Assembly: GCF_013623775.1 (NCBI RefSeq)
Contig: NZ_JABFAM010000001.1
Span: 124,001-188,000, forward strand
Length of the DNA: 64,000 nucleotides
Source: Rufibacter sp. XAAS-G3-1
GTDB taxonomy: Bacteria; Bacteroidota; Bacteroidia; Cytophagales; Hymenobacteraceae
Direction: 5' to 3'
Position 1 is the stretch's first letter; every line of letters begins with the position of its first letter. The position numbers were made by a program, and so were the translations under genes. Below, piece after piece: positions 2,317 to 59,879 of the stretch. The notes below the pieces were generated by a model. It did not search any database, was not told the DNA's origin, and saw only the letters and a program-made list of their open reading frames with translations.

Positions 2317-2368
2317 AACTGCCCGTTTTTAGCTTCTTTTTAGAAAAGGAGGTTAAAAACGGGCAGTT
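2317..2368. terminator. Palindrome-family element after porP
   Basis: A perfect 15-bp inverted repeat (2317-2331 with 2354-2368) has arms reading AACTGCCCGTTTTTA. It ends the cargo-porP unit and belongs to the GTTTT...AAAAC palindrome family described in the findings. Confidence 0.7.
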
Positions 2369-2779
2369 CTCTTTTACAGAAAAGCCTGCATGAATGGCAC
2401 CGCCAAACGCACCATAAAGTACCAAAACCCCCACGCCGGAAGAAGGCGTTTACCTGCTGCACAACTTCTGTACTTTTCGCAAACTCCCTCTTCTTCCCGC
2501 CTCTTTCCTTCCAGCCTTCTTAGTCTCGTTGACTGCTCCTGGGAGCACCTATCCACCTCCATCACGTCTGCACACCTCTACCCGCAAGTTATTGGTTATT
2601 ACGCCTATCCTCTCTTTTCGCGCGCAAGCAAAAATATTTCCCAAAAACCCACGCACCAGGATTTAGACACAAAACCTCACAGGTGTTTTACCGTAAATAC
2701 CACATAAAGCCTTTAAGATAATTTCAAGAAGAAACCTGTTTCAAGCCCACACCTGTCTTACATTTTAATCCTGAATTCC
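2369..2779. other. Intergenic gap without a recognisable gene
   Basis: An open frame at 2390-2707 has no family resemblance and unlikely composition, so no gene is called. No repeat family was recognised apart from the palindrome just upstream. The stretch must contain the promoter of the 2780 gene, but no clear TTTG / TAnnTTTG pair stands out. Confidence 0.4.
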
Positions 2780-3178
2780 ATGAAAACGTTTACTCTTTCT
2801 ATCTGCTTGTTTCTCGCCCTGGTTTTCACCGCCTCGGCACAGGCTCCTTCCAATAAGGACGCGGTTGAAAAAACCACTGTTTCCGTCAGCCGCATGATGG
2901 TGGATGCCATGAAATTAAATGAGGTGGAGTATATCCAGATCCGGAACCTGAACCAGGAGCGCCTGCAAAAAGCCGCCGAAGTCACCAGAAAATTCGCCGA
3001 TGACGCTGCTGCCCGTGAAGCTTCTTTACGTGACATTGAAGAAGACTTTGAGAATAAACTTTTCAGGATCTTGAACAACCGTCAGGTAGAGGCGTACGCC
3101 GAATTCAAGACCAAACCAGAGGCGAACTTCATGTCTTTGGTACAGCAGGTTTCACCGGGCACTAAGAAAAAAGACTAA
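2780..3178 (+). CDS. Small secreted alpha-helical protein, unknown function
   Basis: 132 residues. A signal peptide is clear (MKTFTLSICLFLALVFTASAQ, cleavage near residue 20-21). The mature part is almost wholly helical and charged, with a central stretch rich in E, R, A and K (RNLNQERLQKAAEVTRKFADD) and a lysine-rich tail. This layout resembles small periplasmic helical proteins such as the Spy/CpxP-like or DUF4890-like groups, but I cannot match a family with confidence. It is monocistronic: a very strong terminator starts 9 bases after the stop. Location is likely periplasmic. Confidence 0.75.
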   Translation: MKTFTLSICLFLALVFTASAQAPSNKDAVEKTTVSVSRMMVDAMKLNEVEYIQIRNLNQERLQKAAEVTRKFADDAAAREASLRDIEEDFENKLFRILNNRQVEAYAEFKTKPEANFMSLVQQVSPGTKKKD

Positions 3179-3186
3179 CCTTTTAC

Positions 3187-3250
3187 CCGCCTGTACACGA
3201 GAAGAGGGGCCATATTGCATGGCCCCTCTTCTCGTGTACAGGCGGTTTCT
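3187..3250 (+). terminator. Very long perfect hairpin terminator
   Basis: Arms 3187-3213 and 3219-3245 are a perfect 27-bp inverted repeat (CCGCCTGTACACGAGAAGAG...) around a 5-base loop, followed by TTTCT. It ends the 2780 gene. The stem is about twice as long as usual for an intrinsic terminator. Confidence 0.85.
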
Positions 3251-3404
3251 AATCAAATCATGCTCTTCCCTGAAACACATTTTGGAGCTAGTTTGGCGAA
3301 AACACGTATAAAACAGGAAAGTTCTTCTGGCAGACGTTTGCGCCGGGGAGGAGTGAGCTGCCAACTGGCTCAATAGCTATCCTAAGCTTTTAATAAACCC
3401 AGAG

Positions 3405-3547
3405 CACTCGCTCGCGTCCCGCGGGTGTGGGTTACCTGCGGCCTCTGGCCGCTTGATGGTGTATCTCTGATGTCTCTTTGTCCATACCAAGCGGCGGGAC
3501 GCCGGGGTAGCTCACCCTCGCCAGAGGCGAGCGAGAGAAATCATTAC
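3405..3547. repeat. GC-rich intergenic repeat, 'CTCGCTCGCG' family, copy A
   Basis: Begins CACTCGCTCGCGTCCCGCG, contains GCCTCTGGCCGC and a later GCGGCGGGACGCCGG, and ends CCAGAGGCGAGCGAGAG. Related words occur at 47531-47645 and 33541-33635. The two ends are roughly inverted relative to each other (CTCGCTCGC versus GCGAGCGAG). No ORF is present. It accounts for much of the 690-base gap between the genes at 2780 and 3866. Confidence 0.55.
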
Positions 3548-3717
3548 TTTTGAGGGATTATTGAAAAACTACCTTAGAAACGGTTTTTCTCCGCTTGCCC
3601 TTTACGCGAAGTGCCATAGGTTGCCGCCGAAAGAACTTTCTCTCGTATATAAACCATATCTTTAACCCCGGTTTCCTTCTTAAGTAGCAGGACAAATTAA
3701 GCTATTTCTTTTGTTTT

Positions 3718-3795
3718 CCTGAAAGCATCTTGTGGGCGAACTGGCAAAGCGGTGAATAAACGCCATTGCCGTTCGCCACCCAGATCCTTTCAGGA
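3718..3795. repeat. Imperfect 34-bp hairpin element
   Basis: Left arm 3718-3751 (TCCTGAAAGCATCTTGTGGG...) pairs with right arm 3761-3795 with few mismatches. The same left-arm sequence recurs at 31071-31104 (TCCTGAAAGGATCTTGTGGG), so it is a dispersed element and not a local hairpin only. Confidence 0.6.
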
Positions 3796-3865
3796 GGACA
3801 AGGAGAAGAGATAGTTATTTCTGCCCTATTACTTACCACAGGGGAAACGCACTAAAAAGTAGCTT

Positions 3866-4093
3866 ATGGAATGGTTTAAAATATATAACCCCAAAGCAAT
3901 GAACTCCTTCCAGTTCGTTGCGCTCACCGGAATTATCATGTCTGCGCTGGCACACCTACTGTTACACCTGTGGGGCAAGCAGGTAGATTCGTTCAATTAT
4001 CTATACCTCTGCTGGGGAGTGCTTTTTGTCTTCGGCTCTATCCAGAACCTGCGGCACAATCCCGAAGACGACGATCACCACCACCATCATTAA
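3866..4093 (+). CDS. Small two-helix membrane protein with acidic-histidine tail
   Basis: 75 residues. Two hydrophobic segments (about 14-34, FQFVALTGIIMSALAHLLLHL, and 43-59, YLYLCWGVLFVFGS) suggest a helical hairpin in the inner membrane. The C-terminus ends EDDDHHHHH, a natural penta-histidine after three aspartates, which could bind a divalent metal. The ATG at 3866 is the first in frame and gives a hydrophilic N-terminus. The protein has no family that I recognise. It is a single gene, with a palindrome-family element about 120 bases downstream. Function unknown; metal binding is inference from composition. Confidence 0.65.
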   Translation: MEWFKIYNPKAMNSFQFVALTGIIMSALAHLLLHLWGKQVDSFNYLYLCWGVLFVFGSIQNLRHNPEDDDHHHHH

Positions 4094-4213
4094 TGGGCGA
4101 TGGAGCGATTGCATGAGGGAGAGAATTGAGTAAATTCTTTCAGCAGGGCTTCTACCTCATGCATTGTGTAGGATTGGTTATTTCCCCAGACAAGCTGCGC
4201 AATTCACTTAATC

Positions 4214-4266
4214 CGGCTTCTTGTTTTAGGGCTGTTTTCTGGAAAAGGGGATCAAAACAGCAGCCG
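4214..4266. repeat. Palindrome-family element (degenerate)
   Basis: CGGCTTCTTGTTTTAGGGCT pairs imperfectly with AAAACAGCAGCCG across TTTTCTGGAAAA. It lies between two plus-strand genes. Confidence 0.6.
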
Positions 4267-4331
4267 AAGCGCAACTCTTTTTTGTGCGTCTGCGGTGCCT
4301 CGGCTATCTTATGGTTTCAAACCCCACTCCC

Positions 4332-7660: not shown

Positions 7661-7720
7661 AACCACAGGGGCGTTTTGGGCCTGTTTTCCGGAAAACAGG
7701 CCCAAAACGCCTCTGTGGTT
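7661..7720. terminator. Palindrome-family element, 30-bp arms, between convergent genes
   Basis: Arms 7661-7690 and 7691-7720 meet without a loop and differ at one position. The core is GCGTTTTGGGCCTGTTTTCC. It probably terminates both the ABC gene and the YciI-like gene. Confidence 0.8.
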
Positions 7721-7733
7721 TCAAGTAAAGGCC

Positions 7734-8123: not shown

Positions 8124-8165
8124 CGTTTTTGGCCTTACTTTCATAAAACAGGTCAAAAACAAGAC
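8124..8165. repeat. Palindrome-family element in a divergent promoter region
   Basis: CCGTTTTTGGCCTTACTTTC followed by ATAAAACAGGTCAAAAACAAG. It lies between divergently transcribed genes, where no terminator is needed. Confidence 0.6.
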
Positions 8166-10109: not shown

Positions 10110-10163
10110 CCGGTTTCCGTTTACCGGCTGTTTTTTGAAAAGCGGCCGGTAAACGGAAACCGG
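10110..10163. terminator. 19-bp inverted repeat after the phosphoesterase gene (palindrome family)
   Basis: Arms 10110-10128 and 10145-10163 (CCGGTTTCCGTTTACCGGC and its complement) flank TGTTTTTTGAAAAGC. Confidence 0.75.
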
Positions 10164-10208: not shown

Positions 10209-10258
10209 TATTGCTGGTTTTGAGCCCGTTTTCTGAAAAAGAGGCTCAAAACCAGCAG
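10209..10258. repeat. Palindrome-family element
   Basis: GCTGGTTTTGAGCC (10212-10225) pairs with GGCTCAAAACCAGC (10244-10257) around CGTTTTCTGAAAAAGA. Confidence 0.7.
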
Positions 10259-14069: not shown

Positions 14070-14117
14070 AGCCGTTTTGGCCTTGTTTTCAGAAAACAGG
14101 GCCAAAACGGCTTTTTC
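14070..14117 (+). terminator. Palindrome-family terminator with T-tract
   Basis: AGCCGTTTTGGCC(T)TGTTTT pairs with AAAACAGGGCCAAAACGGCT (14093-14112), then five T. This copy looks like a working intrinsic terminator. Confidence 0.8.
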
Positions 14118-14177: not shown

Positions 14178-14217
14178 CCGTTTCGCGGGTATTTTCCTAA
14201 AAACAAGCTAAAAACGA
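14178..14217. repeat. Decayed palindrome-family element in a 5' leader
   Basis: CGTTTCGCGGGTATTTTCC then TAAAAACAAGCTAAAAACG. It sits between the likely promoter (TATCTTCC near 14150) and the start codon of the VOC gene. Confidence 0.5.
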
Positions 14218-14602: not shown

Positions 14603-14843
14603 GAAGAAGGCAATAAACCATCGAAAGATGTCTCTGAGATAAAGACAAGGTACGCTCCGTGCACTTCAGGAAAAGGGCTTTGGAAGTAAACCCGCAGAAC
14701 CTACGTGCTGGAATACCTCGTCTATCTTAACACTCTGCAAGCCAATCTACCCACAAGAGTTTTTAAGGCAGTTTGGCATCATCTCTGTTTACCAGGCTAT
14801 CTTTTGGTTACCAGTTAATTTCAGGACGGTACAGCTGGACATA

Positions 14844-14876
14844 AAAAGGGCACCAGAACACCCCTGGTGCCCTTTT
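14844..14876. terminator. Bidirectional hairpin terminator
   Basis: AAAAGGGCACCAG (14844-14856) pairs with CTGGTGCCCTTTT (14864-14876). It lies between the VOC gene and the minus-strand universal stress gene and can serve both. The rest of 14603-14937 shows nothing recognisable. Confidence 0.85.
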
Positions 14877-14937
14877 CGTTTTAAGGCTATTTTACAAAAA
14901 TCAGGCACTAAACGCCCTGTCCTTCTTTGCGTTCCCC

Positions 14938-15857: not shown

Positions 15858-16562
15858 TTAAGGAACATGGCAAACGGGTGCCTCCTGTTCAGAGGAAACT
15901 AATTTGGGGCTCAGGTACGGCACGCCCAGGTTCAGGCCCCGCAGAATGAACAGCACCGCCAGGCAGCCCGCCACGTACGGCACCGCGTTACGCATGAGCG
16001 CCCGCCACTTAGGCTGGATGAGCTTTCCGGACAAAGACACCAACCACATAAGCGGCAAGGTACCCAACCCGAACATGAGCATATACAGCATGGCCCCGCC
16101 CACACCCGGCGCACTCACCGCCCCGGCCAACGCGAAGTAGACCATCCCGCAGGGCAAGAGCCCGTTCAGAATTCCTACCGAATACAAAGAACCCGCCGAC
16201 GGATTCATGAACCGCTTCCCGATGGCTTTGCGCAGGGCGTTCCACCAGCGGTCGGTGCCCAGCCACTGGCCGGCGTTTCCGGTGTGTATTTTAGGAAGTA
16301 GCACCAAAAGGAGCATGATCACGCCCGAGGCGATGGAAATGGTTTGTTGCCAACCGGCCAACTGCAAGGTGCGGCCCAACAGTCCGGCTACAAGGCCCAA
16401 GGTGGTGTAAGTAGTCACGCGGCCCAGGTTGTACAGGAGCCGGCCTCCCACAAAGGAAGCGCCGGATCCCCTGCCAACGGGCAGCGCCATGGCAATGGGG
16501 CCGCACATCCCCACGCAATGGAAACTACTGATAAAACCGATGACCAACCCTGCCCACCACAT
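15858..16562 (-). CDS. TauE/SafE-like (DsbD_2-type) membrane protein of the cbb3 assembly cluster
   Basis: 234 residues with about six hydrophobic helices. The N-terminus MWWAGLVIGFISSFHCVGMC has the C16-x3-C20-G-P motif of the 'heavy-metal/urease accessory' branch of the TauE/SafE family, often found beside ccoG and ccoH in Bacteroidota. Members are proposed to help copper delivery or cytochrome maturation for the cbb3 oxidase. It starts 3 bases after the ccoH stop, so it is translationally close to it. The last residues (SSEQEAPVCHVP) add another Cys-x-x-Pro tail. Confidence 0.85.
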   Translation of the reverse strand: MWWAGLVIGFISSFHCVGMCGPIAMALPVGRGSGASFVGGRLLYNLGRVTTYTTLGLVAGLLGRTLQLAGWQQTISIASGVIMLLLVLLPKIHTGNAGQWLGTDRWWNALRKAIGKRFMNPSAGSLYSVGILNGLLPCGMVYFALAGAVSAPGVGGAMLYMLMFGLGTLPLMWLVSLSGKLIQPKWRALMRNAVPYVAGCLAVLFILRGLNLGVPYLSPKLVSSEQEAPVCHVP

Positions 16563-17223: not shown

Positions 17224-18624
17224 TTACCTCCCCGGCCCCAGGAACTTGGTTTTCTCCGTGGCGATGAGTTTGTCCCCGCTGAAAACGCCAATCTCAATTT
17301 TGGAAGAAGCCGATTGCAGGCTGTTTTTAGGAATTTCGGCAAAAAACACACCTTCCACCAGACCTTGTTTGGGCAACACCAACTCGTTGCGAACTACTTT
17401 GATGGTACCTTCAGATGAAAGCAGTTTCAGGGTGATGGGCAGTTCCTCGTCGGTTTTGTTGATGAGCGTGATGTTGTAGAGGTTGGTGACGGTGCCTTGG
17501 GCGGTTTGCTGGTAAAGCATGCCCGGCGTGCGGAGGATGGTGGCGTCTATGTTGCTGCGGGTGATGAGCAACGCCACAAAAGCACCCATCAGCAACACCA
17601 GAACCGCGGTATAGGCTTTCATGCGGCCTGTAAACGTCCAAGGCTTTTTCTCCGCGATGCTTTCTTCCGATGCTACCCGGATGAGACCTTGCGGCTTGTT
17701 CACCAGATCCATGATGGAGTTGCAGACGTCAATACAGGCGGTACAGTTAATGCACTCCATCTGCTGGGCTCCGTTCCGGATGTCGATTCCCGTAGGGCAC
17801 ACCTGCACGCATTGGTGGCAGTCAATACAGTCCCCCTCGGTGCGTACCTGGTTTTTGCGGAGTTTGCCCCTTGGTTCGCCGCGCTCGTAGTCATACGCCA
17901 CGGTCAAGGATTTCTTGTCTAGCATCACGCCCTGCAGCCTTCCGTACGGACAAACAATGGTACACACCTGCTCCCGGAACTTCGCAAACACCCAGTAGAA
18001 AACGCCGGTAAACAGCACCAGTGAGAACAAGCCTCCCGCGTGGGCCGCAGGCCCATCCGTCACGATTTTCTGCAGTTCCTCCACCCCAATGATATAGGCC
18101 AGAAACGTATGGGCAATGAAGAAAGACACCACCACGAACAGCGTGTGCTTGGCCGTTTTCTTCCAGATTTTCTCCGTTGTCCAGGGGGCTTTGTCCAGCG
18201 CTTTCTGCTTGGGCGCATCGCCTTCAATCCAGTACTCAATGCGGCGGAACACCATCTCCATAAAAATGGTCTGCGGACACACCCAGCCGCACCACACCCG
18301 TCCGTACACCACCGTAAACAGGATAATGAACAGGATGAAGGCCATGAAGCCCACCAGCAGAATGAAGAAATCCTGCGGCCAGAAAACCATCCCGAAGAAG
18401 ATGAACTTACGGGCCGGAATGTTGAACAGCAGCATCGGCAAGCCGTTCACCTTCAGGAACGGCCCCGTGAAGAGGAGCGTCAGGAGCACGTAGCTCACGT
18501 ATTTGCGGTACTGGTACAGTTTTCCGCTGGGCTTCTTAGGGTACACCCACACCCGTTTCCCGTCTTTGTCTACGGTAGAGATGTTGTCTCTGAATGTTTC
18601 TGGATCAGTTAGTACGGTACTCAT
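17224..18624 (-). CDS. ccoG: CcoG/FixG-type cytochrome c oxidase accessory protein
   Basis: 466 residues. Membrane helices in the first 210 residues surround a CGWVCPQTIFMEMVFRRIEY motif. Two 4Fe-4S clusters follow: CIDCHQCVQVCPTG and CINCTACIDVCN. The C-terminal third is a periplasmic Ig-like domain ending KTKFLGPGR. CcoG is a membrane ferredoxin involved in Cu(II) reduction and copper supply to cbb3 oxidase. A candidate Fnr-like palindrome lies about 145 bases upstream of the start (18768-18779). Confidence 0.95.
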   Translation of the reverse strand: MSTVLTDPETFRDNISTVDKDGKRVWVYPKKPSGKLYQYRKYVSYVLLTLLFTGPFLKVNGLPMLLFNIPARKFIFFGMVFWPQDFFILLVGFMAFILFIILFTVVYGRVWCGWVCPQTIFMEMVFRRIEYWIEGDAPKQKALDKAPWTTEKIWKKTAKHTLFVVVSFFIAHTFLAYIIGVEELQKIVTDGPAAHAGGLFSLVLFTGVFYWVFAKFREQVCTIVCPYGRLQGVMLDKKSLTVAYDYERGEPRGKLRKNQVRTEGDCIDCHQCVQVCPTGIDIRNGAQQMECINCTACIDVCNSIMDLVNKPQGLIRVASEESIAEKKPWTFTGRMKAYTAVLVLLMGAFVALLITRSNIDATILRTPGMLYQQTAQGTVTNLYNITLINKTDEELPITLKLLSSEGTIKVVRNELVLPKQGLVEGVFFAEIPKNSLQSASSKIEIGVFSGDKLIATEKTKFLGPGR

Positions 18625-18795: not shown

Positions 18796-18838
18796 CTGCG
18801 TTTTAGGGGTGTTTTGGAGAAAAGAGGTTAAAAACAGA
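18796..18838. repeat. Palindrome-family element (degenerate)
   Basis: CTGCGTTTTAGGGGTGTTTT then GGAGAAAAGAGGTTAAAAACAG, upstream of ccoG. Confidence 0.6.
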
Positions 18839-26095: not shown

Positions 26096-26334
26096 TTCAA
26101 CAATACTGAGGCCATATCTCCTTTTAGAGCCAGTTTCCTAAGAACAGGCTTAAAACCTATATTGAGAGGGTTTCCAATAAGACACGGAAGTAACTTCCGC
26201 GCCATAAAGGAAACCCTGCCTGCTAAAATCCTACCATTCCTCTTCTTCCCCGTACTATCCAGTGAGGCCTCTTGATTACAAGGAAATTTGTATCTTGCCT
26301 TAGACCTCCGGCGGGAGTAACCGCAGACAGCTCA

Positions 26335-26966: not shown

Positions 26967-27006
26967 GCGTTTCAGGGCTGTTTTCGGGAAAACAGCCCTG
27001 AAACGC
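26967..27006. terminator. Palindrome-family element between convergent genes
   Basis: GCGTTTCAGGGCTGTTTT (26967-26984) and its perfect complement (26989-27006) around CGGG. Confidence 0.8.
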
Positions 27007-27381: not shown

Positions 27382-27422
27382 GCGTTTTAGGTTTGTTTTC
27401 TGAAAAACATGCCCAAAACGCC
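27382..27422. repeat. Palindrome-family element in a divergent region
   Basis: GCGTTTTAGGTTTGTTTTC then TGAAAAACATGCCCAAAACGC. It lies between the divergent 27090 gene and katE. The remaining bases to 27875 are AT-rich leader sequence with no recognised element. Confidence 0.7.
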
Positions 27423-30156: not shown

Positions 30157-30196
30157 CCGTTTTGAAGCCGTTTTCCAGAAAGTAGCCCTAAAACGG
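30157..30196. repeat. Palindrome-family element downstream of katE
   Basis: CCGTTTTGAAGCCGTTTTCC then AGAAAGTAGCCCTAAAACGG. Imperfect. Confidence 0.65.
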
Positions 30197-30350
30197 TCAG
30201 GAGGTTGCAGCTTCTCCTACAAACTCGAGGTTTCCGGTAATTTGTTGGCGGGTATCACTACATATCGCAGGCAAAAGCCATTTCTCAATATTGGCTCTCT
30301 CACGGTTCCCTTGGTACCTGAAGGGTTTTTGGTCTGTTTCAAAGGAAAAC

Positions 30351-30387
30351 GTTGGCTACTGTTTTCGCAGAAACAGGCTTAAAACGC
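30351..30387. repeat. Palindrome-family element (degenerate)
   Basis: GTTGGCTACTGTTTTCGCAG then AAACAGGCTTAAAACGC, in the gap between katE and the 30502 gene. Confidence 0.5.
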
Positions 30388-32725: not shown

Positions 32726-32774
32726 GCTGTTTGCCTTTTTGGGGGCTTTTTTCATAAAACAAGCGAAAAACAGC
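32726..32774. repeat. Palindrome-family element in a divergent region
   Basis: GCTGTTTGCCTTTTTGGGGG then CTTTTTTCATAAAACAAGCG and AAAAACAGC, between the divergent antiporter and DoxX genes. Confidence 0.6.
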
Positions 32775-34054: not shown

Positions 34055-34097
34055 TGTGTTTTACGCCTGTTTCCCGGAAAACTGCCCCAAAACGGCA
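34055..34097. repeat. Palindrome-family element
   Basis: TGTGTTTTACGCCTGTTTCC then CGGAAAACTGCCCCAAAACG, 15 bases upstream of the DoxX pseudogene start. Confidence 0.65.
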
Positions 34098-35166: not shown

Positions 35167-35210
35167 GCCTGTTTTTAACCTGGTTTTCTGAAAACAAGCC
35201 TAAAACGGGC
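35167..35210. repeat. Palindrome-family element
   Basis: GCCTGTTTTTAACCTGGTTT then TCTGAAAACAAGCCTAAAAC and GGGC, just downstream of the PAS kinase gene. Confidence 0.7.
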
Positions 35211-37927: not shown

Positions 37928-37973
37928 GCGTTTTCCTGGTGTTTTCTGAAAATGGGCCAAAAGCTTTGTTGAT
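37928..37973. repeat. Palindrome-family element upstream of the PAS kinase
   Basis: GCGTTTTCCTGGTGTTTTC then TGAAAATGGGCCAAAAGC. Confidence 0.6.
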
Positions 37974-38728: not shown

Positions 38729-39019
38729 GGAAGGAGTTGGGGTGGGTTTTACGCTTCACCATCTCCTTCTAAGGCGCATACATCATGCAATTGGGAGATT
38801 TAATAAGGTTGGGGAACAGTCATTTCTTTTCACCGTTTGGTCAATCTGTTTGAGAGCCACTTTACAGAAAAAAGGCAAAAAACACAGTCAGCGTGGCAAC
38901 GTATTCACCTGACGTTTTTTTAGAAATAAAAAGGAGCTTCTCAGCTTGAGGAAGCAACCATCTTGTGTATCGCTCGTTTGAAAGGGGCATCACAAACCAG
39001 GAACTTAACTGAGGTAAAT

Positions 39020-39437: not shown

Positions 39438-39475
39438 CTGTTTTAGGCCACTTTTATGGAAAACAGGCCTAAAAC
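39438..39475. repeat. Palindrome-family element between convergent genes
   Basis: CTGTTTTAGGCCACTTTTAT then GGAAAACAGGCCTAAAACC. Confidence 0.7.
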
Positions 39476-39529
39476 CATTATTGGATCTTTGGTTTTAGGC
39501 CTTTGAAGGAGATGGTGGATAGCAAAACC

Positions 39530-41868: not shown

Positions 41869-44271
41869 TTACCGCAGCCCCGCCCGTTTTGCGGCTAATT
41901 TCACAGAAAGCACGGCAAACGAGATCACGCTCAGGGTACTTACCGGCATGAGAATAGCGGAGACAATAGGCGTAAATTCTCCCATCACCGCCATGGTCAG
42001 ACCAATGATGTTATAGATAAAGGAGACCCCAAAGGCAGCCAGAATCAGGCGCAGACTGGTCTGGGAAAACCGGATGTACTGGGCCAGACGTTCTAAATGC
42101 TTCGCATCTAAGATACCATCGCAGGAAGGGGAGAAACCGGTCACGTTATCGGTGAGGGCCAGGCCAACGTCGCTTTGGCGCAAGGCCCCCGCATCGTTCA
42201 GGCCATCGCCTACCATGATGGGAGATTGGCCTTTTTCCTTCAGGGACGTGATGTACTCCAGTTTCTGCATGGGCGATTGGTTGAACCGAAGCTCGGCCTC
42301 TGGCCCGAAGAGTTCGCGCAGGCGCGGGGCCTCGCTGTCATTATCGCCGGAGAGCACCGCCAGCTTTTTGGTTTTGGCCAGCTCCTGCACCAGTTCTTTT
42401 AACCCTTTGCGGTACACGTTCTGGAACATATAATAGCCCCGCACTTGCTCGTCTAACGCAATGAACACGCGGGTTTGTTTGGTGTTCTGCCCTTCCTCAA
42501 AAACCGCAGATACCCACGCAGCAGAACCAACTTTTACAAACGTATCTCCTACCACCCCTTCCAGCCCGGCACCGGGTTTCTCCAGAAAATGGAGCACGGG
42601 TTGCGGCTTGCCCTCCAGATGCGTGTACAACCGCTGGCTTAGCGGGTGGGTGGAGTGTTTCAAAACAGAGCGCACCAATTGCTCTTCGGCTTCAGACAAG
42701 GCGTGGCCCACAAAGGAAATGGCCGCCGCGCTAGGCTCGGTTAAGGTGCCGGTTTTGTCAAACACCACGGTATCGGCCTTGGCCATGGCTTCTACCACGC
42801 CGCTGTTCTTGAGGTAAAACTTCTGCTTCCCGAAAATGCGCAGGGTGGCTCCCAGGGTGAACGGCGTGGCCAAGGATAACGCACACGGGCAGGCAATCAC
42901 CAGCACCGAGGTAAAGGCTTTCACGGCCATGTCAGAATCGCGCGGAATCCAGTACCAGAGCGCCCCGGCCGCAATGAGCAAGGTCACTGACAGGAAGTAC
43001 TTGCCTACGGCGTTGGCGTAGTTCTCTACGGTCTGCTTTTCTTCTTTCTTGAAGTTGACGTGGTTCCAGAGTTGGGTCAGGTAACCCTGCGACACCTCTT
43101 TCACCACCTCCAGTTCAATGCCTTCGCCCAGCTGCCTTCCGCCCGCGTAGATCACTTCCCCGGCCACCCGCACCACCGGCACAGATTCTCCGGTCACAAA
43201 GCTATAGTCAATGTTAGCGGAACCACGCAGCAGAATAGAGTCGGCGGGAATGAGTTCCTGGTTTCTAACCAAAATACGCTGGCCCTTTTGCAGTTCTTTC
43301 ACCGAGGTAGGCGTTTCCTGCCCGTTTTTCAGAACGGAGACCGAAATCGGGAAATACGAGGTGTACTCGCGGTCGAAGGCCAGGGAGTCATAGGTGCGGC
43401 GCTGCACGTACTTGCCAATCAGCATGAAGAACACCAGGCCGGTGAACGAATCCAGGAAGCCGGGGCCGCGCCCGGTGGCAATGTCATAGATGCTCACGCA
43501 GAATAGAGAAAGCAACCCAATGGCGATAGGCAGATCCAGGTTGATCATGCGCTGCTGCAAGCCTTGCCAGGCACTGGTGAAGAAACCGCGCGCGCTGTAC
43601 AGAAACACCGGCAAGGCCAGCAATACGTTGAGCCAGCCAAAGAACCGCCCAAACTGGTACTGCAACCCGCCGAAGTACTCGGGAAAACTCAGCAGCATCA
43701 CGTTACTGAAACAGAAGCCGGCCAAGCCCAGCTTGTAGTAAATGGAGCGGTCTTTCTTGGGCGCGGGCGCTTCCATGTCTGCCAGCGTAATCTGGGGCTC
43801 GTAGCCGATGTGGGCCATCAGCTCCACCACCTGCGCCAGCGTGGTCACGCCGTGTTCAAAGGTGACGGCCGCTTCTTTGCGCAGGAAATTCACGTGCACA
43901 TCGGTTACCCCGGCGTTGAGGCGGTTCAGGTTCTCCAGAAGCCAGATGCAGGAACTACAGTGCATCTGCGGAATATGGAACGTGATTTTGCTAACTTTAT
44001 CGTTCTGGAAATCCAGCAACTGCTGCTGTACTTTGGCATCGTTCAGGTACACGAAACGCGCCGAGGCAATAGGGTCTTTCACCGAGATGCCGGGGCGATT
44101 GTCTAGGGTATAATAAGTGCAGAGATCGTTCTCGGCCAATAGTTCATACACCACCTTGCAGCCTTCGCAGCAGAACTCCTTCTCATCAAAGTGAATAGGC
44201 GTATTGGCGCATTCATCGCCGCAATGGTAGCAGGTGTGGACGTCGGTCTCTAGATGTGCGGTCTGGAGCAT
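41869..44271 (-). CDS. ccoI: CcoI/FixI-type copper-exporting P-type ATPase
   Basis: 800 residues from the ATG at 44271, supported by the -7 box at 44293-44300; the longer frame would overlap the promoter. The N-terminus has a Cys-rich metal domain (C14-x2-C17-x3-C21, then C34-C35-x2-C38), then an HMA-like domain with MHCSSC. ATPase motifs follow: transmembrane CPC in IACPCALSLATP, phosphorylation DKTGTLTEPS, and MVGDGLNDAGALRQSD. CcoI delivers copper for the CuB centre of cbb3 oxidase. It is 18 kb from the cco block but shares its promoter arrangement. Confidence 0.93.
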   Translation of the reverse strand: MLQTAHLETDVHTCYHCGDECANTPIHFDEKEFCCEGCKVVYELLAENDLCTYYTLDNRPGISVKDPIASARFVYLNDAKVQQQLLDFQNDKVSKITFHIPQMHCSSCIWLLENLNRLNAGVTDVHVNFLRKEAAVTFEHGVTTLAQVVELMAHIGYEPQITLADMEAPAPKKDRSIYYKLGLAGFCFSNVMLLSFPEYFGGLQYQFGRFFGWLNVLLALPVFLYSARGFFTSAWQGLQQRMINLDLPIAIGLLSLFCVSIYDIATGRGPGFLDSFTGLVFFMLIGKYVQRRTYDSLAFDREYTSYFPISVSVLKNGQETPTSVKELQKGQRILVRNQELIPADSILLRGSANIDYSFVTGESVPVVRVAGEVIYAGGRQLGEGIELEVVKEVSQGYLTQLWNHVNFKKEEKQTVENYANAVGKYFLSVTLLIAAGALWYWIPRDSDMAVKAFTSVLVIACPCALSLATPFTLGATLRIFGKQKFYLKNSGVVEAMAKADTVVFDKTGTLTEPSAAAISFVGHALSEAEEQLVRSVLKHSTHPLSQRLYTHLEGKPQPVLHFLEKPGAGLEGVVGDTFVKVGSAAWVSAVFEEGQNTKQTRVFIALDEQVRGYYMFQNVYRKGLKELVQELAKTKKLAVLSGDNDSEAPRLRELFGPEAELRFNQSPMQKLEYITSLKEKGQSPIMVGDGLNDAGALRQSDVGLALTDNVTGFSPSCDGILDAKHLERLAQYIRFSQTSLRLILAAFGVSFIYNIIGLTMAVMGEFTPIVSAILMPVSTLSVISFAVLSVKLAAKRAGLR

Positions 44272-44479: not shown

Positions 44480-44520
44480 CCCGTTTTGAGCTTATTTTCT
44501 GGAAAACAGCCCAAAAAGGC
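44480..44520. repeat. Palindrome-family element
   Basis: CCGTTTTGAGCTTATTTTC then TGGAAAACAGCCCAAAAAGG. First of two copies in the divergent ccoI / LEA-like gap. Confidence 0.65.
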
Positions 44521-44565: not shown

Positions 44566-44605
44566 TCGTTTTACGCCTACTTTGGGGAAAATAGGCGCGA
44601 AACGA
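44566..44605. repeat. Palindrome-family element
   Basis: TCGTTTTACGCCTACTTTG then GGGAAAATAGGCGCGAAACG. Second copy in the gap; both lie between divergent genes. Confidence 0.7.
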
Positions 44606-46220: not shown

Positions 46221-46400
46221 GGCCTTAAGTTTCAGAGTATATTCCCCTTCCATAGCAGATACTCCCCCTTTGAAGGGGGAAGGGGGATGTTTACACCTGC
46301 CGATCCACGTATTGCTAAATTTTCTTATAATGAACCTGTTTAGAGTTTTCATTAACAAGCTTTAAAGCAATTCCTGTGGGGCAAGTGCCCGCTTTTACTG

Positions 46401-46440
46401 TCGTTTTTAGGCTATTTTTATGAAAATAGGCCAAAAACAA
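46401..46440. repeat. Palindrome-family element
   Basis: TCGTTTTTAGGCTATTTTTA then TGAAAATAGGCCAAAAAC. Confidence 0.7.
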
Positions 46441-46481
46441 GAGGGTTGTCTGTACACTGCCGCAGGCATCGGCTTGTACCT

Positions 46482-46519
46482 TCGTTTTAGGGCTATTTCT
46501 ATGAAAACAGGTGTAAAAC
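46482..46519. repeat. Palindrome-family element (degenerate)
   Basis: TCGTTTTAGGGCTATTTCTA then TGAAAACAGGTGTAAAAC. A fragment AGACCTCGTAGCG...GCGTCTGTGCCA at 46550-46589 also occurs at 10299-10321. Confidence 0.65.
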
Positions 46520-46627
46520 TCCAAACAGCTTCAATGCCACCCACTCAAAAGACCTCGTAGCGTTTGAAAGACCTGCGAGCGTCTGTGCCATTCCCGCATC
46601 CTCTTCTCTGTGTAAAGTCATAGACCC

Positions 46628-47706: not shown

Positions 47707-47746
47707 GCGTTTAAAGGCTAATTTCTGAAAAAGCCGCCAGAAACGC
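47707..47746. repeat. Palindrome-family element (degenerate)
   Basis: GCGTTTAAAGGCTAATTTC then TGAAAAAGCCGCCAGAAACG. Confidence 0.6.
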
Positions 47747-50075: not shown

Positions 50076-50387
50076 ATGAAGGTGGTGAAACAGAATACCT
50101 TGCTAACGGACTTGAAGCCTCTGATGACGGAGGTGAAAGTGATTACCGGCGGTTACCTGACCGATGTCCAAACGATTATCTGCCAGCGCATGGAGCTGTT
50201 AGGCGTCCCCGCCGTAGACCAGGCAGTAGAGTTTTACGCCACTGAAAAAGACCACGTGATTGCCATCCATTACGCCCGAAGGTTAGATTTACAGAAATCT
50301 ATCTGCGCCATTGACTATTTCCCAGACCATACCCTGCAGGATGTAAGCAAAGTCTCTGACAAGATCATGGAGGTGCTGCGAAAATAG
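50076..50387 (+). CDS. Conserved-looking small cytoplasmic protein, unknown function
   Basis: 103 residues without signal or membrane segment. The sequence alternates helices and strands (LKPLMTEVKVITGGYLTDVQ, TIICQRMELLGVPAVDQAVE, HVIAIHYARRLDLQKSICAI). No family is recognised. The ATG at 50076 follows a purine-rich stretch, and the upstream region has TTTACCTTGAGC near 50031-50042 that may be part of a promoter. Single gene, convergent with the histidine kinase gene. Confidence 0.6.
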   Translation: MKVVKQNTLLTDLKPLMTEVKVITGGYLTDVQTIICQRMELLGVPAVDQAVEFYATEKDHVIAIHYARRLDLQKSICAIDYFPDHTLQDVSKVSDKIMEVLRK

Positions 50388-50422
50388 CCTACTTTCCCCA
50401 AAACGGCCCTAAAACACAATTC

Positions 50423-51834: not shown

Positions 51835-54800
51835 ATGAGCCTGAAAACCTTTCAAACCAATTCCTTCAAAACAGCAACCGCTCCCACTCCTGCTGCTCCG
51901 TTCCTGTTCACCCAACGTCAGTTTTTCTGGCTTTTCGCGGGGATGGGCACCATTGCGCTTGGGTTTATCCTGATGGCTTCAGACCCTACCCCGCAGGGCT
52001 ATGGGTTTCTGGGCTTAACGCTGGGGCCTTTGTTGGTGGTGTTGGGATTAATGCTCCCGTTTTTTGGCATTTTTCTGAAAAACAGCCCTAAAACAGCAAA
52101 GAATATTTCTCCCCGCTGGCGTACTTTTCTGCGTTGGAACACCCTTCTGGGTTGGTTTACGGGTTTACTGGCCCTGTTGGTGTACGTGCTTACGCTGGAG
52201 CCTACCACCAGCTTCTGGGATACCGGCGAGTTCATTGCGGCGGCGTATAAATTGCAGGTACCGCACCCGCCGGGGGCTCCGCTGTTTCTGCTCATTGGTA
52301 GGTTGTTTACGCTGTTGAGTTTGGGCGAGGTGACCAAGGTAGCCTGGTGGATGAACTTCCTCTCGGCGGTGAGCAGCGCGGGTACGGTTCTGTTTCTGTT
52401 CTGGAGCATCACGTTACTGGCCCAACGGCTTTTGCCCTTCTCGGCCGAAGGCCCCTCTCCCGCCCAATGCCTCTTGCTGCTGGCCAGCGGAGCCGTGGGT
52501 GCCTTGGCTTTTGCGTTCACAGATTCGTTCTGGTTTAGCGCGGTGGAGGCCGAGGTCTACGGCATGTCCTCGTTCTTCACGGCCATTGTGGTGTGGGCCG
52601 CCCTCAAGTGGCAAGCCCAGGACAATCATCCGGAAGCGGACCGCTGGCTTTTGTGTCTGGCCTACTTGGTGGGGCTTTCCATTGGCGTGCACTTGCTCAA
52701 TCTGGTGGCGTTGCCCGCTATTGCGTTATTGGTGTATTTTCAGAAATACAGGCCAAAAATGAAGGGAGTTTTTCTGGCTTTAGGTATTGGCGGGGCCTTG
52801 GTGCTGGCGGTAATGGAAGGCGTGATTACGGGTTTGCCCACGGTAGCGGGTGCGGTGGAGGTGTTCTTTGTCAACAGCATCGGCTTGCCGTATGGGGCAG
52901 GTGCGGTTTTCTTTCTGCTGGGCCTCGCGGCGGCTATTGCGTACGGACTGCGCTGGGCGAAAAAAACCGGACGCGTGCGGTGGCACAACGCCTTGGTAGC
53001 TTTTGTGCTGGTCTTGATGGGTTATTCGTCTTACCTCATGGTGCCCATCCGCTCCGGTTACAACCCGCCCATTGACGAGAACAACCCCGAAAACCTGCTG
53101 TCTTTTGTGAGTTATCTTAAGCGCGAACAGTACGGTAGCAGGCCGCTGCTGTACGGGCCGCAGTTCAACGCGCAGGCGCAGCGCTATGAAAAAGGGGCTC
53201 CCATTTACGCTCCGCAGAACGGTGAATACGCAGTGGTGGATTACAAATATGACGTGGGGTACGAGGACAAAGAAAAAACGCTGCTCCCGCGCCTGTACTC
53301 AGACCAACCGGTGCATTTGCGGGCGTACCAGAACTGGGTAAACGTGCAGCCAGGGCAGAAACCGAGCTTTAGCCAGAACCTGAGTTTCCTGTGGCACTAC
53401 CAACTCAACCACATGTACTGGCGTTACTTCGGGTGGAATTTCATTGGTCGCCAAAGCGATGTGCCACACGCCGGGGTGTTGTGGCCGTGGGAGAAAAAGA
53501 GCGAAGTTCCCTCACCCATCGCCCAAAGCAAAGCCCGTAACCAGTTTTTTCTTTTACCGCTGCTGCTGGGCGTTTTAGGGCTGTTTTTTCAATTCCGGCG
53601 CAAAAACGCCGATGGTTGGGTGGTATTGCTGCTGTTTTTCTTCACCGGCATCGCCATTGTATTGTACCTAAACCAGCCGCCCGTTGAACCCCGCGAGCGG
53701 GACTACACCTTTGCCGGCTCCTACTACGCTTTCAGCATCTGGATTGGCTTGGGAGTGCTTGGCCTAGCCGAATTCCTGCGCCGCCTGCTCAAAGCAGAGC
53801 TTCCGGCGGCAATCTTGGCTACGGTGCTGGCGCTTTCTGTCCCCGTTCTGCTCTTCGCCGAAGGCTACGATGACCACAACCGTTCCAACCGTTACCATGC
53901 GCTGGACTCAGCGAAGAACCTACTCAGTTCGGTAGCGCCCAACGCCATCCTGTTCACCAACGGCGACAATGACACGTTCCCGCTGTGGTACGCGCAGGAA
54001 GTAGAAGGTTTCCGGACGGATGTGCGCGTGCTGGTCATGCCCTACCTCAACACCGACTGGTACATTGAACAGGCCCGCCGCCGAGTGAACACCTCCGCAC
54101 CCTTGCCCGGCACCTTGCCCGTTTCGCAGTACGCCTTCAGCGCCAACAATTATCTGCCTTACGTGCCTACTCCCAGCGTGCAGGACAGCGGCATGGACTT
54201 AAACCAATACCTGAACCTCCTGAAACAGAACCACCCGGCCCTACAGGTGCAAACGCAGGACGGCCGCACCTTGAACGCTCTTCCTACCAAGAAGCTGAGT
54301 TTGCCGGTTCACAAAAACACAGTCTTGCAGAACGGCACCGTCTCCCCAGAACGGGCGAACCAAGTAGCAGAGGCAATGACCTGGGAACTACAAGCCGGGG
54401 CGCTGGAGAAAAAACACTTGTTCCTGCTTGACGTGATTGCCTCCAACCACTGGCAACGCCCCCTCTACTTCTCCAGTACCGGCGCGGAAACCTCAGAACT
54501 TGGTTTGCAGCCCTTCCTACAACTGGAGGGCCAAGCCCTGCGCCTGGTTCCCATCCGCAACCCAGATACGCAGTCAGAAGCCTACGTTGACCGGCCGCGT
54601 ACCCAGGAAAACCTGTTGCACCAGTTTCACTACACCGGCCTGACCAACCCCCACCAGCCCTACGAAGAGAATTTTGTGACCCAGGTTGTGCCCGTGTACC
54701 GCCGCAACTTCGCAGCACTGGCCACCGCCCATTTGCAGGCTGGTGATGTCCCCCAAGCGCAAAAAGTACTGAAAGCCTGCTTCACCTTGCTGCCTGATAT

Positions 54801-55711: not shown

Positions 55712-55750
55712 TCGTTTCGGGGCTGTTTTTTCTAAAACGGGGCTAAAACA
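55712..55750. terminator. Palindrome-family element after the SDR gene
   Basis: GTCGTTTCGGGGCTGTTTTT then TCTAAAACGGGGCTAAAACAC, adjacent to the minus-strand SDR stop. Confidence 0.65.
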
Positions 55751-56693: not shown

Positions 56694-58310
56694 ATGAAAA
56701 CAACTTCTATCTGGCGGCAAGATGCCGATCATACGACGTACCCTCAGCTACAGGGCTCGCTGGTGGCCGATGCGGTCATTATTGGAGGAGGCATCACGGG
56801 CATCACCACGGCCCACCTGCTGGCTTCGGCCGGAAAACGGGTGGTGGTACTGGAGGCTCTAAAAGTGGCCGAAAGCACCACCGGCTATTCCACCGGAAAC
56901 CTGTATGCCCCCGTGGGGGAATACCTGCACCAGCTCAAAGCCAAATACGACCAGGAAACGGTGAACGCCTTAACCGCCTCGCGCCGCGCCGCCATCAACC
57001 TGATAGAAAGCCTGGTGCAACGCTATTCCATAGACTGCCATTTCAAGCGGGTTCCGTTTTATTTTCTAACTGAGCATCCAGCGGAAGATTCGTGTATCAA
57101 AGATGAATTTGAGACGGCGCTGGCCGCCGGGTTGCCCGCCCATTTTGACACCTCTTCGCCCCTGCCGTACCCCATCAGCTCTGCGCTGCGGCTAGATGGC
57201 CAGGCCCAGTTCAACCCCATGGCGTACGTGAAAGAACTGGCGGCCCACACCTCGGGCCCCAACTGCCTCATTTTTGAGAACAGCAAAGTACTGAAGGTAG
57301 ACGAAGGGAAAACCCACGTGGTACACACCCAGCACGGGAAAGTACGGGCCCGGCAGGTGGTGCACGCCACCCATACCCCCAAAGGCATCTGGTTTCTGCA
57401 CACGCTCCTGGGCCCGTACCGCGAATACGCCTTGGCCGTTTCCCTGAACTCCTTACCGCCCGAGGGTACTTTTTGGGCTTACCATGCCATGCACCACCAC
57501 TCCCTGCGCCCGTACACCAATGACCAGGGCGAGCATTTCCTGCTCATCTTAGGCGAATCGCACAAAGTGGGGCACAAAGAAGACAATGAGGAGAATTTCC
57601 GGAAACTGGAGGAATACGTGCGCGAGCGTTTTGATGTGAAAGCCGTGGAATACCGCTGGGCCGCCCAGCAATACAAACCCGCCGACAGTCTGCCGTACAT
57701 CGGGCGCAAGCACAGTGGCTCCGAGATCTACGTGGCCACCGGTTTTGAAGCCGACGGGCTGACCTACGGCACCTTGTCGGCCATGATCCTGAGCGACCTC
57801 ATGCTGGGCAAAGAAAACCAGTGGGCCGAGATGTACTCCCCCACCCGACACCAACCGTTGAAAGCGGCGCCTAAATTCATCAAGGAGAACGTAGACGTGA
57901 TGGTGCAGTACCTCAAAGACCTGCCCTACCGCAGCCAGGTGGAAGAACTCGCCGATATCTCATCCGGGGAAGGCAAGAACATTGAGCTGGACGGCAAAAA
58001 CTACGGCGCGTACCGCGATGATACCGGCAAACTGCACGTGGTCTCGGCGGTGTGTACGCACATGGCCTGCCTGGTACACTTCAACAAAGCCGAGAAAAGC
58101 TGGGACTGTCCCTGCCACGGCAGCCGCTTCGACGTAGACGGCCGCGTACTGGAAGGCCCCGCCTACCTGGATCTTTCCAGAATGCAGGACAAACCCACCA
58201 CTTCCAACCGCTACAAGAAAATCACGTCTGCCGCCTTCTTCGCCGCCTCGGCCCTGGCCGGTATATACTTCTACCGGAAATATGCGGGTAACAAGAAAAG
58301 TAGCAAGTAA
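56694..58310 (+). CDS. FAD-dependent oxidoreductase with C-terminal Rieske domain and membrane helix
   Basis: 538 residues from the ATG at 56694. The FAD-binding GGGITG (31-36) opens a DAO-type fold. The Rieske 2Fe-2S domain near the end has C454-T-H456 and C472-P-C474-H475 (WDCPCHGSRFDVDG). The final helix AAFFAASALAGIYFYRKYAG could anchor it to the membrane. This DAO-plus-Rieske architecture is known from uncharacterised oxidoreductases in many bacteria; electrons would pass from substrate via FAD to the iron-sulfur cluster. The substrate is unknown. Two palindromes follow the stop. Confidence 0.9.
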   Translation: MKTTSIWRQDADHTTYPQLQGSLVADAVIIGGGITGITTAHLLASAGKRVVVLEALKVAESTTGYSTGNLYAPVGEYLHQLKAKYDQETVNALTASRRAAINLIESLVQRYSIDCHFKRVPFYFLTEHPAEDSCIKDEFETALAAGLPAHFDTSSPLPYPISSALRLDGQAQFNPMAYVKELAAHTSGPNCLIFENSKVLKVDEGKTHVVHTQHGKVRARQVVHATHTPKGIWFLHTLLGPYREYALAVSLNSLPPEGTFWAYHAMHHHSLRPYTNDQGEHFLLILGESHKVGHKEDNEENFRKLEEYVRERFDVKAVEYRWAAQQYKPADSLPYIGRKHSGSEIYVATGFEADGLTYGTLSAMILSDLMLGKENQWAEMYSPTRHQPLKAAPKFIKENVDVMVQYLKDLPYRSQVEELADISSGEGKNIELDGKNYGAYRDDTGKLHVVSAVCTHMACLVHFNKAEKSWDCPCHGSRFDVDGRVLEGPAYLDLSRMQDKPTTSNRYKKITSAAFFAASALAGIYFYRKYAGNKKSSK

Positions 58311-58349
58311 CGGTTCCAGAATGTGGTTGCCCCTACTTCTGGAAATGGT

Positions 58350-58385
58350 GGTTTTGGAGCCATTTTTGGAAAAACAGGCACAAAA
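58350..58385. repeat. Palindrome-family element (degenerate)
   Basis: GTTTTGGAGCCATTTTTGG then AAAAACAGGCACAAAAC, just before a perfect copy. Confidence 0.6.
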
Positions 58386-58390
58386 CAAAC

Positions 58391-58438
58391 CCCTGTGTTT
58401 TAGGGCTATTTTTCAGAAAATAGCCCTAAAACACAGGG
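58391..58438. terminator. Perfect 22-bp palindrome-family element between convergent genes
   Basis: CCCTGTGTTTTAGGGCTATT TT (58391-58412) and its exact complement (58417-58438) around TCAG. This is the cleanest copy in the window. Confidence 0.85.
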
Positions 58439-58457
58439 ATTCGTTGTAAGAAAATAA

Positions 58458-59705
58458 CTACTTCTTTTTCTTCGGCTTTTTCTTTTTCTTAGTCGCATCC
58501 TCAAAGTCATGGATCTCCTTCATCAAGGATTTCAGGTCGGGCTTTACCTCGCTGGAGAAGTCAATGGTGGCGTTGTAGTCCTGTTTCTCAATGTCCAGCA
58601 CCTTGATGGGCTTGCCCAGGTACTCCTCAATCACGTCCAGGATCGGTTTTTCCTCGGGGCTGCAGAACGACACGGATTTCCCTTTCTGGGTGCCCCGGCC
58701 GGTACGGCCTACGCGGTGTACGTAATTTTCGGGCACGTCTGGCAGGTCATAGTTCACCACGTATTCCACGCTGGGGATGTCAATGCCGCGGGAACTCACA
58801 TCGGTGGCCACCAGCACTTTGACCTCGCCTTTCTTGAAGCGGTTTAAGGCGGCCAACCGGTCTACCTGTTCTTTGTCGCCGTGCAGGGTTTCAGATTTAA
58901 TCCCCACGCGTTCCATGGCGGCAAACACCCGCTCGGCCCGCACCTTCGTGCGCACGAACACCAGTATTTTGCTGCCCTCGTTTTCCTTGATCACGCGCTC
59001 CAGGAAGAACCGTTTGTCGTCCATGCCGATGTAAGCCACCGAGTGGTCCACGTTTTTGGAAACCGGGTCTTTGGGCGAAATCTGGATCCGGATGGGTTTG
59101 GTCACCAGCGAATACGCCAGGTCTTTGATGTGCTCATTGATGGTGGCCGAGAAGAACAGTGTCTGCCGCTTGCGGGGCAGGTGCCGCAACACGTCCCTAA
59201 TGTCTTTGATAAACCCGAGGTCTAGCATGTGGTCGGCCTCGTCCAGAATGAGAATCTCCACGCGCTCCAGCCTGATGTGGCCCTGGCTCACCAGGTCGAA
59301 CATGCGGCCGGGGGTAGCCACCAACACGTCTATGCCGTCTTCCAGTTTGGAAATCTGCGGGGCCTGCTCCACGCCGCCAAACACAGTCATGGTCTCCACG
59401 CGGGTGTGCTTGCCCAGGGTATGGAACACCTCGGTGATCTGGATGGCCAGTTCGCGGGTGGGCACCATCACCAGGCATTTGATACCGTCCTGCCGGGCGT
59501 ACTGCTTGCGCTCATGCAGCAGGTGCAGCACCGGAATAGCGAAAGCCGCCGTTTTGCCGGTTCCCGTCTGCGCGATAGCCAGCACGTCTTCGCCCTTCAA
59601 GATGGGCGGAATGGCCTTGAACTGGATATCGGTGGGTTTCTTAAAGCCCAGTTTGTCCAGGGCTTTCTTGATGGCGGGGTTGATGTGGTAATCTTCGAAT
59701 TTCAT
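58458..59705 (-). CDS. DEAD-box RNA helicase (RhlE-like)
   Basis: 415 residues. Q-motif region FKKPTDIQFKAIPPIL, motif I AQTGTGKT, Ib TPGRMFDL, II LDEADHMLD, III FFSATI, V TDVSSRGIDIPSVEYVV and VI HRVGRTGRG are all intact. The C-terminal tail is a lysine-rich extension (DATKKKKKPKKKK) that may help RNA binding. RhlE-like helicases remodel ribosomal or mRNA structures, often at low temperature. It is a lone gene, and its 5' side borders the AT-rich methylase island. Confidence 0.95.
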   Translation of the reverse strand: MKFEDYHINPAIKKALDKLGFKKPTDIQFKAIPPILKGEDVLAIAQTGTGKTAAFAIPVLHLLHERKQYARQDGIKCLVMVPTRELAIQITEVFHTLGKHTRVETMTVFGGVEQAPQISKLEDGIDVLVATPGRMFDLVSQGHIRLERVEILILDEADHMLDLGFIKDIRDVLRHLPRKRQTLFFSATINEHIKDLAYSLVTKPIRIQISPKDPVSKNVDHSVAYIGMDDKRFFLERVIKENEGSKILVFVRTKVRAERVFAAMERVGIKSETLHGDKEQVDRLAALNRFKKGEVKVLVATDVSSRGIDIPSVEYVVNYDLPDVPENYVHRVGRTGRGTQKGKSVSFCSPEEKPILDVIEEYLGKPIKVLDIEKQDYNATIDFSSEVKPDLKSLMKEIHDFEDATKKKKKPKKKK

Positions 59706-59839
59706 GGAAGCGGTGTTTCGGCCTGCGCCGATGAGACAAGCGGTTTCTCCTTGTACGAGGTACCGGCAGAAACTTCTGCAAAGGTGCGATTTCTTTCTGG
59801 CTTTTGCAGGGTGGAGGTGGTGGAGAGGGTGGTGGGTGG

Positions 59840-59879
59840 GCGTTTTGGGGCTGTTTTTGGGGAAAGAGGCTAAAAACGA
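59840..59879. repeat. Palindrome-family element at the island border
   Basis: GCGTTTTGGGGCTGTTTTTG then GGGAAAGAGGCTAAAAACG. The base composition shifts to AT-rich directly after it. Confidence 0.65.

Follow-up and report, generated by a model that had tools for sequence, protein, structure and literature searches.

Abundant palindromes in bacterial genomes are usually filed as repetitive extragenic palindromes (REPs) and attributed to RNA hairpins or to a transposase. Uptake signals known so far are short words without palindromic symmetry that are common within genes, and some copies of the DNA uptake sequence (DUS) lie inside terminators. Reb1-like road-block terminators, double-stranded protein sites at gene ends, are eukaryotic. 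REPs are outlined as sitting mostly in tandem and convergent gaps between genes (PMC3733652), and dialects of the DUS are reported for the Neisseriaceae (PMC3630211). Here, we describe a family of 38-bp palindromic sites in a 64-kb stretch of the 5.30-Mb genome of Rufibacter sp. XAAS-G3-1 (this stretch, C11:124001-188000, is called the window, and the genome that holds it G000), whose conservation tracks double-stranded boxes more than pairing. Judged from sequence, these are probably double-stranded recognition sites kept by selection. That each copy would be a two-fold site in double-stranded DNA for a putative protein acting at gene ends is a more evenly balanced call. Both claims draw on what is observed, namely the box pattern, a fixed 2-bp centre, the lack of strand asymmetry, the conservation of the boxes, placement at 3′ ends of genes and in convergent gaps, near-restriction to one genus, and species dialects.

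Anatomy, abundance and range of the site

The unit is 38 bp long and reads GTTTT-N6-GTTTT-N4-AAAAC-N6-AAAAC, with two 18-bp half-sites flanking a 2-bp centre, GTTTT boxes at positions 2-6 and 13-17, and AAAAC boxes at positions 22-26 and 33-37. Boxes lie about one helical turn apart inside each half-site, and in a count of spaced palindromes the two words recur at 26- and 15-bp spacing. The spacing is fixed, as 295 of the 356 sites scoring at least 12 with a half-site weight matrix have a 2-bp centre. Information content amounts to ~15.9 bits per half-site and ~32 bits per site and peaks on the boxes; T reaches 94-96% at half-site positions 4, 5, 15 and 16, position 7 is nearly free, and positions 8, 10 and 13 are weak. 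Both ends of the site read CGTTTT/AAAACG, without asymmetry, and the flanks of the bulk of the sites in G000 share no sequence.

The matrix was retrained on 464 kb of G000, and a site was called at a score of at least 20. An earlier note on the window had proposed a palindrome family, to be refuted by a frequency no higher than in shuffled sequence; 287 sites were called in these 464 kb, whereas an order-2 Markov shuffle gave 2. The family itself is real: a copy lies no more than 14 bp from each of the 29 coordinates that the note listed (the one at 30351 scores 19.3, the other 28 reach 20 or more), and with 10 further sites beyond that list the window contains 38 at this threshold. At 0.6 sites per kb, ~3,300 sites are extrapolated for the genome. 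Two strict patterns and the end word of a mobile element described below occur 34, 20 and 8 times in the sample, where genome totals predict 25.1, 20.4 and 8.5, which makes the extrapolation reasonable. Over the whole of G000, the strict pattern gives 145+142 strand matches and its reversed control 0+0. Rfam yielded no match at gathering score in the window.

Strict matches are present in 16 of 16 Rufibacter genomes, with 6 to 879 strand matches each. Low counts in some of them are partly a matter of dialect, as genome G012, with only 6 strict strand matches, yields 108 sites in 240 kb when scored with a matrix of its own. Exact matches to the strict form in a named genome collection came from Rufibacter only (R. 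sediminis, R. roseus and R. ruber; 7 of 7 stretches), and 43 other genomes of the family and order gave 0-2 strict strand matches each, like the reversed control. A longer pattern was found in one of 395 phylum-wide genomes, the window's own, in a sample that held no other Rufibacter. When spaced palindromes were counted in 80 kb of one genome per genus, four other genera had top z values of 4.4 to 7.9, compared with 21.9 in the window, and a fifth was unreadable for its runs of N. Viral contigs had no exact match to one strict pattern. Elsewhere than in Rufibacter there are only chance-level or isolated matches, so that the family is nearly restricted to one genus. The large, clade-limited family of hundreds of copies that the earlier note had anticipated was thereby recovered in a profile search of G000 and its relatives.

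The sequence model R1, built from 103 copies (120 sampled of 223 eligible) and with 114 candidates scored per genome, lists weak matches in other genera, of which six loci from four genomes were inspected. The best R1 matches beyond Rufibacter are a single isolated, recognisable site each in G035 (L180) and G022 (L181/L184), two other genera of the family. Among the publications listed for palindromes or intergenic repeats in Rufibacter or the Hymenobacteraceae, no title or abstract opening was about this family.

Conservation, pairing and placement

An alignment of 240-kb stretches from G004 and G014 shows 83% identity over its chained parts, which together with the filled gaps span 65% of G004's stretch. 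Of 96 G004 sites with a 2-bp centre, 72 are aligned in G014 (26 with an internal gap), one is missing and 23 are unalignable. A score of at least 16 is found at the same G014 place for 60 of the 72 (43/49 intergenic, 17/23 coding), compared with 5.9% of random non-coding positions. Identity within intergenic sites is 92% for A/T bases at positions 3-5 and 15-17 (89% for all bases there) and 69% for the site middle. It is 66% in non-coding flanks up to 40 bp away, 75% in non-site intergenic DNA and 79% in other A/T runs. The boxes are therefore best kept between these species, and the middle is not kept.

Sites also persist between other pairs of species, in forms that differ. The retrained half-site consensus is CGTTTTaGGcCTGTTTTc in G000, CGTTTTTGGCCTGTTTTC in G013 and G007, and CGTTTTCGGGCTCATTTC in G012. 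Between G012 and G001, all five aligned sites are at the same place, two of them in one coding gene; another four G012 sites were unplaceable, and in gaps without alignment one site is shared and one is not. At the common sites at 12347 and 15732, each of these two species shows its own dialect form. G012 and G005 have 3/3 aligned sites in common (7 unplaced, 1 absent in a gap), and G013 and G007 have 8/8, plus 1/2 in gaps. In the gaps orthologous to those of the window, other species have a site in 24 of 30 comparisons where G000 has one and in 14 of 35 where it has none. The consensus is tight in G012 and G013 and loose in G004 and G014, which looks as if maintenance had relaxed in some lineages.

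The earlier note had observed arms varying in step and taken this as a sign of selection or conversion on pairing. For the bulk of copies this does not hold. Among 260 G000 sites, pairing between the arms at positions 9, 10 and 12-14 does not exceed that with a random partner, and there is a slight excess at positions 8 and 11 (z 2.6 and 2.3); the four flanking bases pair above chance (z 3.5 to 5.3). On average 11.84 arm positions are paired against 11.55 expected (262 sites). Observed and expected means for other genomes are 13.99/14.10 in G013, 13.62/13.61 in G012, 14.06/13.65 in G007, 10.72/10.12 in G004 and 10.17/9.94 in G014. What does vary in step is a minority, and much of the pairing excess is confined to this small class: 10 of 249 G000 sites have 17-18 of 18 positions paired (0.7 expected), and flank stems of at least 5 bp occur at 20 of 260 (0.7 expected). 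Folding gives the same division in G000: the 38-mers have a median RNA energy of -7.25 and arm-swapped chimeras one of -7.50, and stable hairpins form a tail (11.5% of 58-mers at or below -25, 1.6% in chimeras). Compensatory change was followed at 77 middle pairs (positions 6-14, intergenic, Watson-Crick only) that are paired in G004 and changed in G014. A single change broke the pair in 53 cases, two changes left 14 unpaired, and in 10 a double change preserved pairing; thus, there is no clear retention of pairing. Three sites at the tip of long flank stems, L024:7695-7732, L011:13924-13961 and L016:11952-11989, have 20, 14 and 14 bp of perfect complementarity outside the 38 bp.

Nor do the arms differ by strand. 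In 133 tandem-gap sites oriented by transcription, no position differs between the 5′ and the 3′ arm (smallest p 0.066), and the sites as a whole have no excess of T downstream (3.02 of 12, 3.07 upstream). Flank stems of at least 4 bp, in 20 of 249 sites, do have more T downstream (4.7 of 12, 3.25 upstream). Chance-level pairing and the lack of arm asymmetry in the bulk of copies are what a dyad in double-stranded DNA predicts.

Placement was counted with home-made gene calls in G000, G004 and G014. Site centres lie outside called genes in 250/286, 79/114 and 113/150 cases, respectively. Convergent gaps hold a site in 37/52, 19/24 and 24/29 cases, and divergent gaps in 24/54, 10/27 and 12/30 (pooled Fisher p 3e-7). 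The enrichment of convergent gaps that the earlier note had suggested testing was also counted in gaps of 45-150 bp, of which, with the three species pooled, 30/44 convergent, 32/116 tandem and 0/19 divergent ones hold a site. Sites within 15 bp behind a stop codon number 45 in G000, with 20.5 expected under random placement in the same gaps. Published REPs show a similar gap preference, and placement alone thus does not set the Rufibacter family apart.

Copies in the window and a mobile element with two sites

Among the copies in the window, those with clear hairpins include two perfect ones with 18 of 18 positions paired, at 7672-7709 (score 49.8) in a convergent gap and at 26968-27005 (47.3) with a T-rich tail on the minus strand. 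Extended stems are seen at 2324-2361 (39.3; flank stem 7 bp, terminator-like), at 10118-10155 (34.8; flank stem 8 bp) and at the hairpin copy 58396-58433 (47.6), whose stem differs on both sides in G004 yet pairs. The site at 35170-35207 (42.2) is at the tip of an AAAGCC/GGCTTT stem and has a counterpart scoring 27-28 in the orthologous gap of G004 and G014.

Two further copies lie in convergent gaps, at 58350-58387 (39.4) and at 55713-55750 (41.2); the latter adjoins a stop codon, and its orthologous gap has a site in 8/10 species, 7 of these 0-3 bp from the stop. Divergent gaps contain those at 8124-8161 (34.1), 27383-27420 (41.8), 32735-32772 (31.6), 44482-44519 (42.5), 44567-44604 (36.6) and 59841-59878 (44.4). 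Other 38-bp sites are at 4222-4259 (41.0), 10216-10253 (40.8), 14179-14216 (40.1), 18799-18836 (40.7), 30158-30195 (41.9), 34057-34094 (40.6), 39439-39476 (41.1; a site in the orthologous gap of 0/3 comparable species) and 47708-47745 (32.5; at least one in 6/6). Sites of 37 bp occur at 14073-14109 (42.7; 1-bp centre) and 37929-37965 (30.2), and the weaker site at 30349-30386 scores 19.3.

Copies absent from the earlier list are those at 3278-3315 (29.4), 26120-26157 (28.9), 38847-38884 (28.4), 14877-14914 (39.7; adjoining a separate hairpin at 14841-14879) and 50379-50416 (25.4; overlapping a called gene end), together with weak sites within called genes at 16274-16311 (22.2), 17311-17348 (23.0), 41885-41923 (20.9) and 43312-43349 (24.4). 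A TMEM260-like gene contains three. The site at 52058-52095 (41.7) has a match of at least 15 within 60 bp of the same offset in 13/13 other species, a retention that is partly forced by the protein. The match at 53571-53608 (33.3), with one good arm, is also found in 13/13 species and is probably driven by protein sequence, and the site at 52724-52761 (31.4), likewise new to the list, is found in 0/13. Unrelated to the palindrome family is a perfect 27-bp inverted repeat with a 5-bp loop at 3187-3245.

The remaining two copies, at 46402-46439 (47.6) and, 81 bp away, at 46483-46520 (38.4), belong to a miniature inverted-repeat transposable element (MITE) at 46332-46532. Its terminal inverted repeats (TIRs) read GAA[CG]CTGTTTAGAGTTTT, one of them overlapped by the outer AAAAC box of the second site, and a 3-bp target duplication AAT flanks it. 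Elements of this type are ~200 bp long with two sites 81 bp apart, or 112-114 bp with one site; TIRs measure 17-18 bp, and identical 3-bp flanks border 18 of 26 pairs of ends. Further copies are at L010:125-327, L024:225-430, L178 and L179. A 921-bp IS4/5-type element with the same ends (L177:1250-2170, in contig C17 of G000) encodes a 291-aa DDE transposase and is likely the autonomous partner. At least 41 matches of 186-241 bases occur in G000; of the other 15 species, 12 have some match, in most cases 33-67 bases that surround a single palindrome, two longer ones having 72-73% identity, and near-full-length matches are confined to G000, in both cases among the matches listed. TIRs, target duplication and autonomous partner characterise the 46332-46532 element and its copies and not the bulk of the sites. 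Only 16 of 287 G000 sites lie within such elements; acquisition of the site by the MITE is thus more probable than an origin of the family in the MITE.

What the sites may do, and their relation to known systems

A dyad with conserved boxes, enrichment in convergent gaps and a minority of hairpins fit a road-block, an insulator or an architectural anchor at gene ends. A dimer or tetramer of one putative protein would contact the four A/T boxes, and the bound site would act as a boundary there, most likely as a symmetric road-block or insulator limiting read-through and collision from both sides, or else as an architectural anchor of the nucleoid. About one copy in ten has been incorporated into a genuine hairpin or forms its tip, and several such copies look terminator-like. 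For the road-block role in particular we can claim tentative confidence at most.

Several observations weigh against a protein-bound site at gene ends. GTTTT/AAAAC words outside called sites, some of them perhaps weak sites, are 84% identical between G004 and G014, which makes the excess conservation of the boxes smaller and lowered our confidence in a selected, double-stranded site to the probable. Some pairing is real: positions 1 and 7 show an excess in G000 (z 4.8 and 4.7), position 7 covaries also in G013, G012 and G007 (some further positions do so in single species), ~10% of copies are strong hairpins, several terminator-like, and near-perfect copies are more numerous than expected in G012 (21 against 10.6), G004 (6 against 0.1) and G014 (3 against 0.0). 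Median folding is better than that of chimeras in G012 (-14.6 against -13.1) and G007 (-14.0 against -10.8). To this extent the earlier idea of selection or conversion on pairing stands, while the random-level positions and the unkept middle in G004 and G014 leave it without support in general. As to placement, 46 of 111 divergent gaps hold sites, site centres fall in called coding sequence in 36/286 (G000), 35/114 (G004) and 37/150 (G014) cases, and avoidance of promoters and coding DNA would yield part of the 3′-end bias. Finally, ~32 bits far exceed the need of ~3,300 sites, and copying explains the surplus more naturally than binding alone.

A rival reading is that of REPs or bacterial interspersed mosaic elements (BIMEs), mobilised as single-stranded hairpins by a REP-associated tyrosine (RAYT; Y1) transposase. 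The size, abundance and placement of the sites resemble those of REPs as outlined in PMC3733652, the sites being mostly extragenic and at gene 3′ ends, and a Y1 domain is found in 15 of 16 Rufibacter genomes. The sole G000 gene above the Pfam cut-off encodes a RAYT-like protein of 188 aa (L009:1258-1824, minus strand); a 38-bp site ~200 bp from it is unremarkable at 0.6 sites per kb. Yet the site ends have neither the GTAG nor the CGTC tag, as these are defined in that outline, and the one-contig genome G007, with no Y1 domain and no match to P0001, has 316 strict strand matches and 20 sites in 40 kb. RAYT relatives are common across the family, including genera without the palindrome, most sites stay at orthologous places, and the arms of most copies are not kept complementary (the ~10% in G000 and the folding excess in G012 and G007 excepted). 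Intrinsic terminators, which the earlier note had seen in some copies while holding that termination alone could not explain all, would account for the enrichment behind stop codons and in convergent gaps, and the 10 near-perfect hairpins and the 20 flank stems with more T downstream are of this kind. The bulk of copies, however, has neither downstream T enrichment nor strand asymmetry, a GC-rich, oriented hairpin with a T-tract is found in a minority only, median folding in G000 is at chimera level, and sites also occur in tandem and divergent gaps, as the note had argued. Both readings are disfavoured; we regard RAYT-driven mobility as unlikely and intrinsic termination as quite unlikely.

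Many copies, limitation to a genus and dialects that differ by species at stable places would also suit an uptake-like self-recognition signal spread by biased transformation, after the manner of the DUS dialects, but a 38-bp palindrome with most copies outside genes makes this improbable. That the sites are debris of an IS5-type MITE with two copies is very improbable: real as that element is, with its TIRs, duplicated flanks and likely autonomous partner, it contains few of the sites, its near-full-length matches come from a single genome among those listed, and the flanks of most sites have no common sequence. A more serious contender, though still a doubtful one, is that the sites serve gyrase or a nucleoid protein as a topology factor where positive supercoils accumulate from transcription, with no role in termination. 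Such a bent, architectural site would agree with the enrichment in convergent gaps and with A/T boxes spaced by one helical turn, and the data do not separate this reading from a road-block.

In its widest and rather speculative form, the recognition-site reading has a putative Rufibacter DNA-binding protein marking where a large share of transcription units end (~1,600-3,300 places per genome) and stopping or insulating transcription from both sides, the dialects having changed jointly at orthologous places as its specificity drifted. If true, this would be a genome-wide, protein-based transcription boundary system in a bacterium; we know of no genome-wide road-block boundary system in bacteria. 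Sixteen species, several with distinct dialects, would offer a natural experiment for the cognate protein and for protein-marked transcript ends.

The Rufibacter site is three to four times longer than the DUS and, unlike it, palindromic and mostly extragenic. Many copies and species dialects are common to both (PMC3630211). Like HIP1 and the alternate HIPs of cyanobacteria, as sketched in PMC4390886, the family is a palindrome of one clade, present in very high numbers, for which some genomes can have a variant instead; HIP1 is an 8-bp, GC-rich and methyltransferase-linked word in that sketch, whereas the Rufibacter site is 38 bp long, A/T-boxed and mostly outside genes. REPs and BIMEs are likewise palindromes, of 20-40 bp, in high copy, mostly extragenic and in tandem and convergent gaps (PMC3733652, in outline). 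The Rufibacter sites differ from them in having no terminal tag, in their presence in the Y1-less G007, in the lack of arm covariation in most copies and in the symmetric, double-stranded conservation of their boxes. With Reb1-like road-blocks they have in common a double-stranded site at gene ends, for which the binder in Rufibacter is putative.

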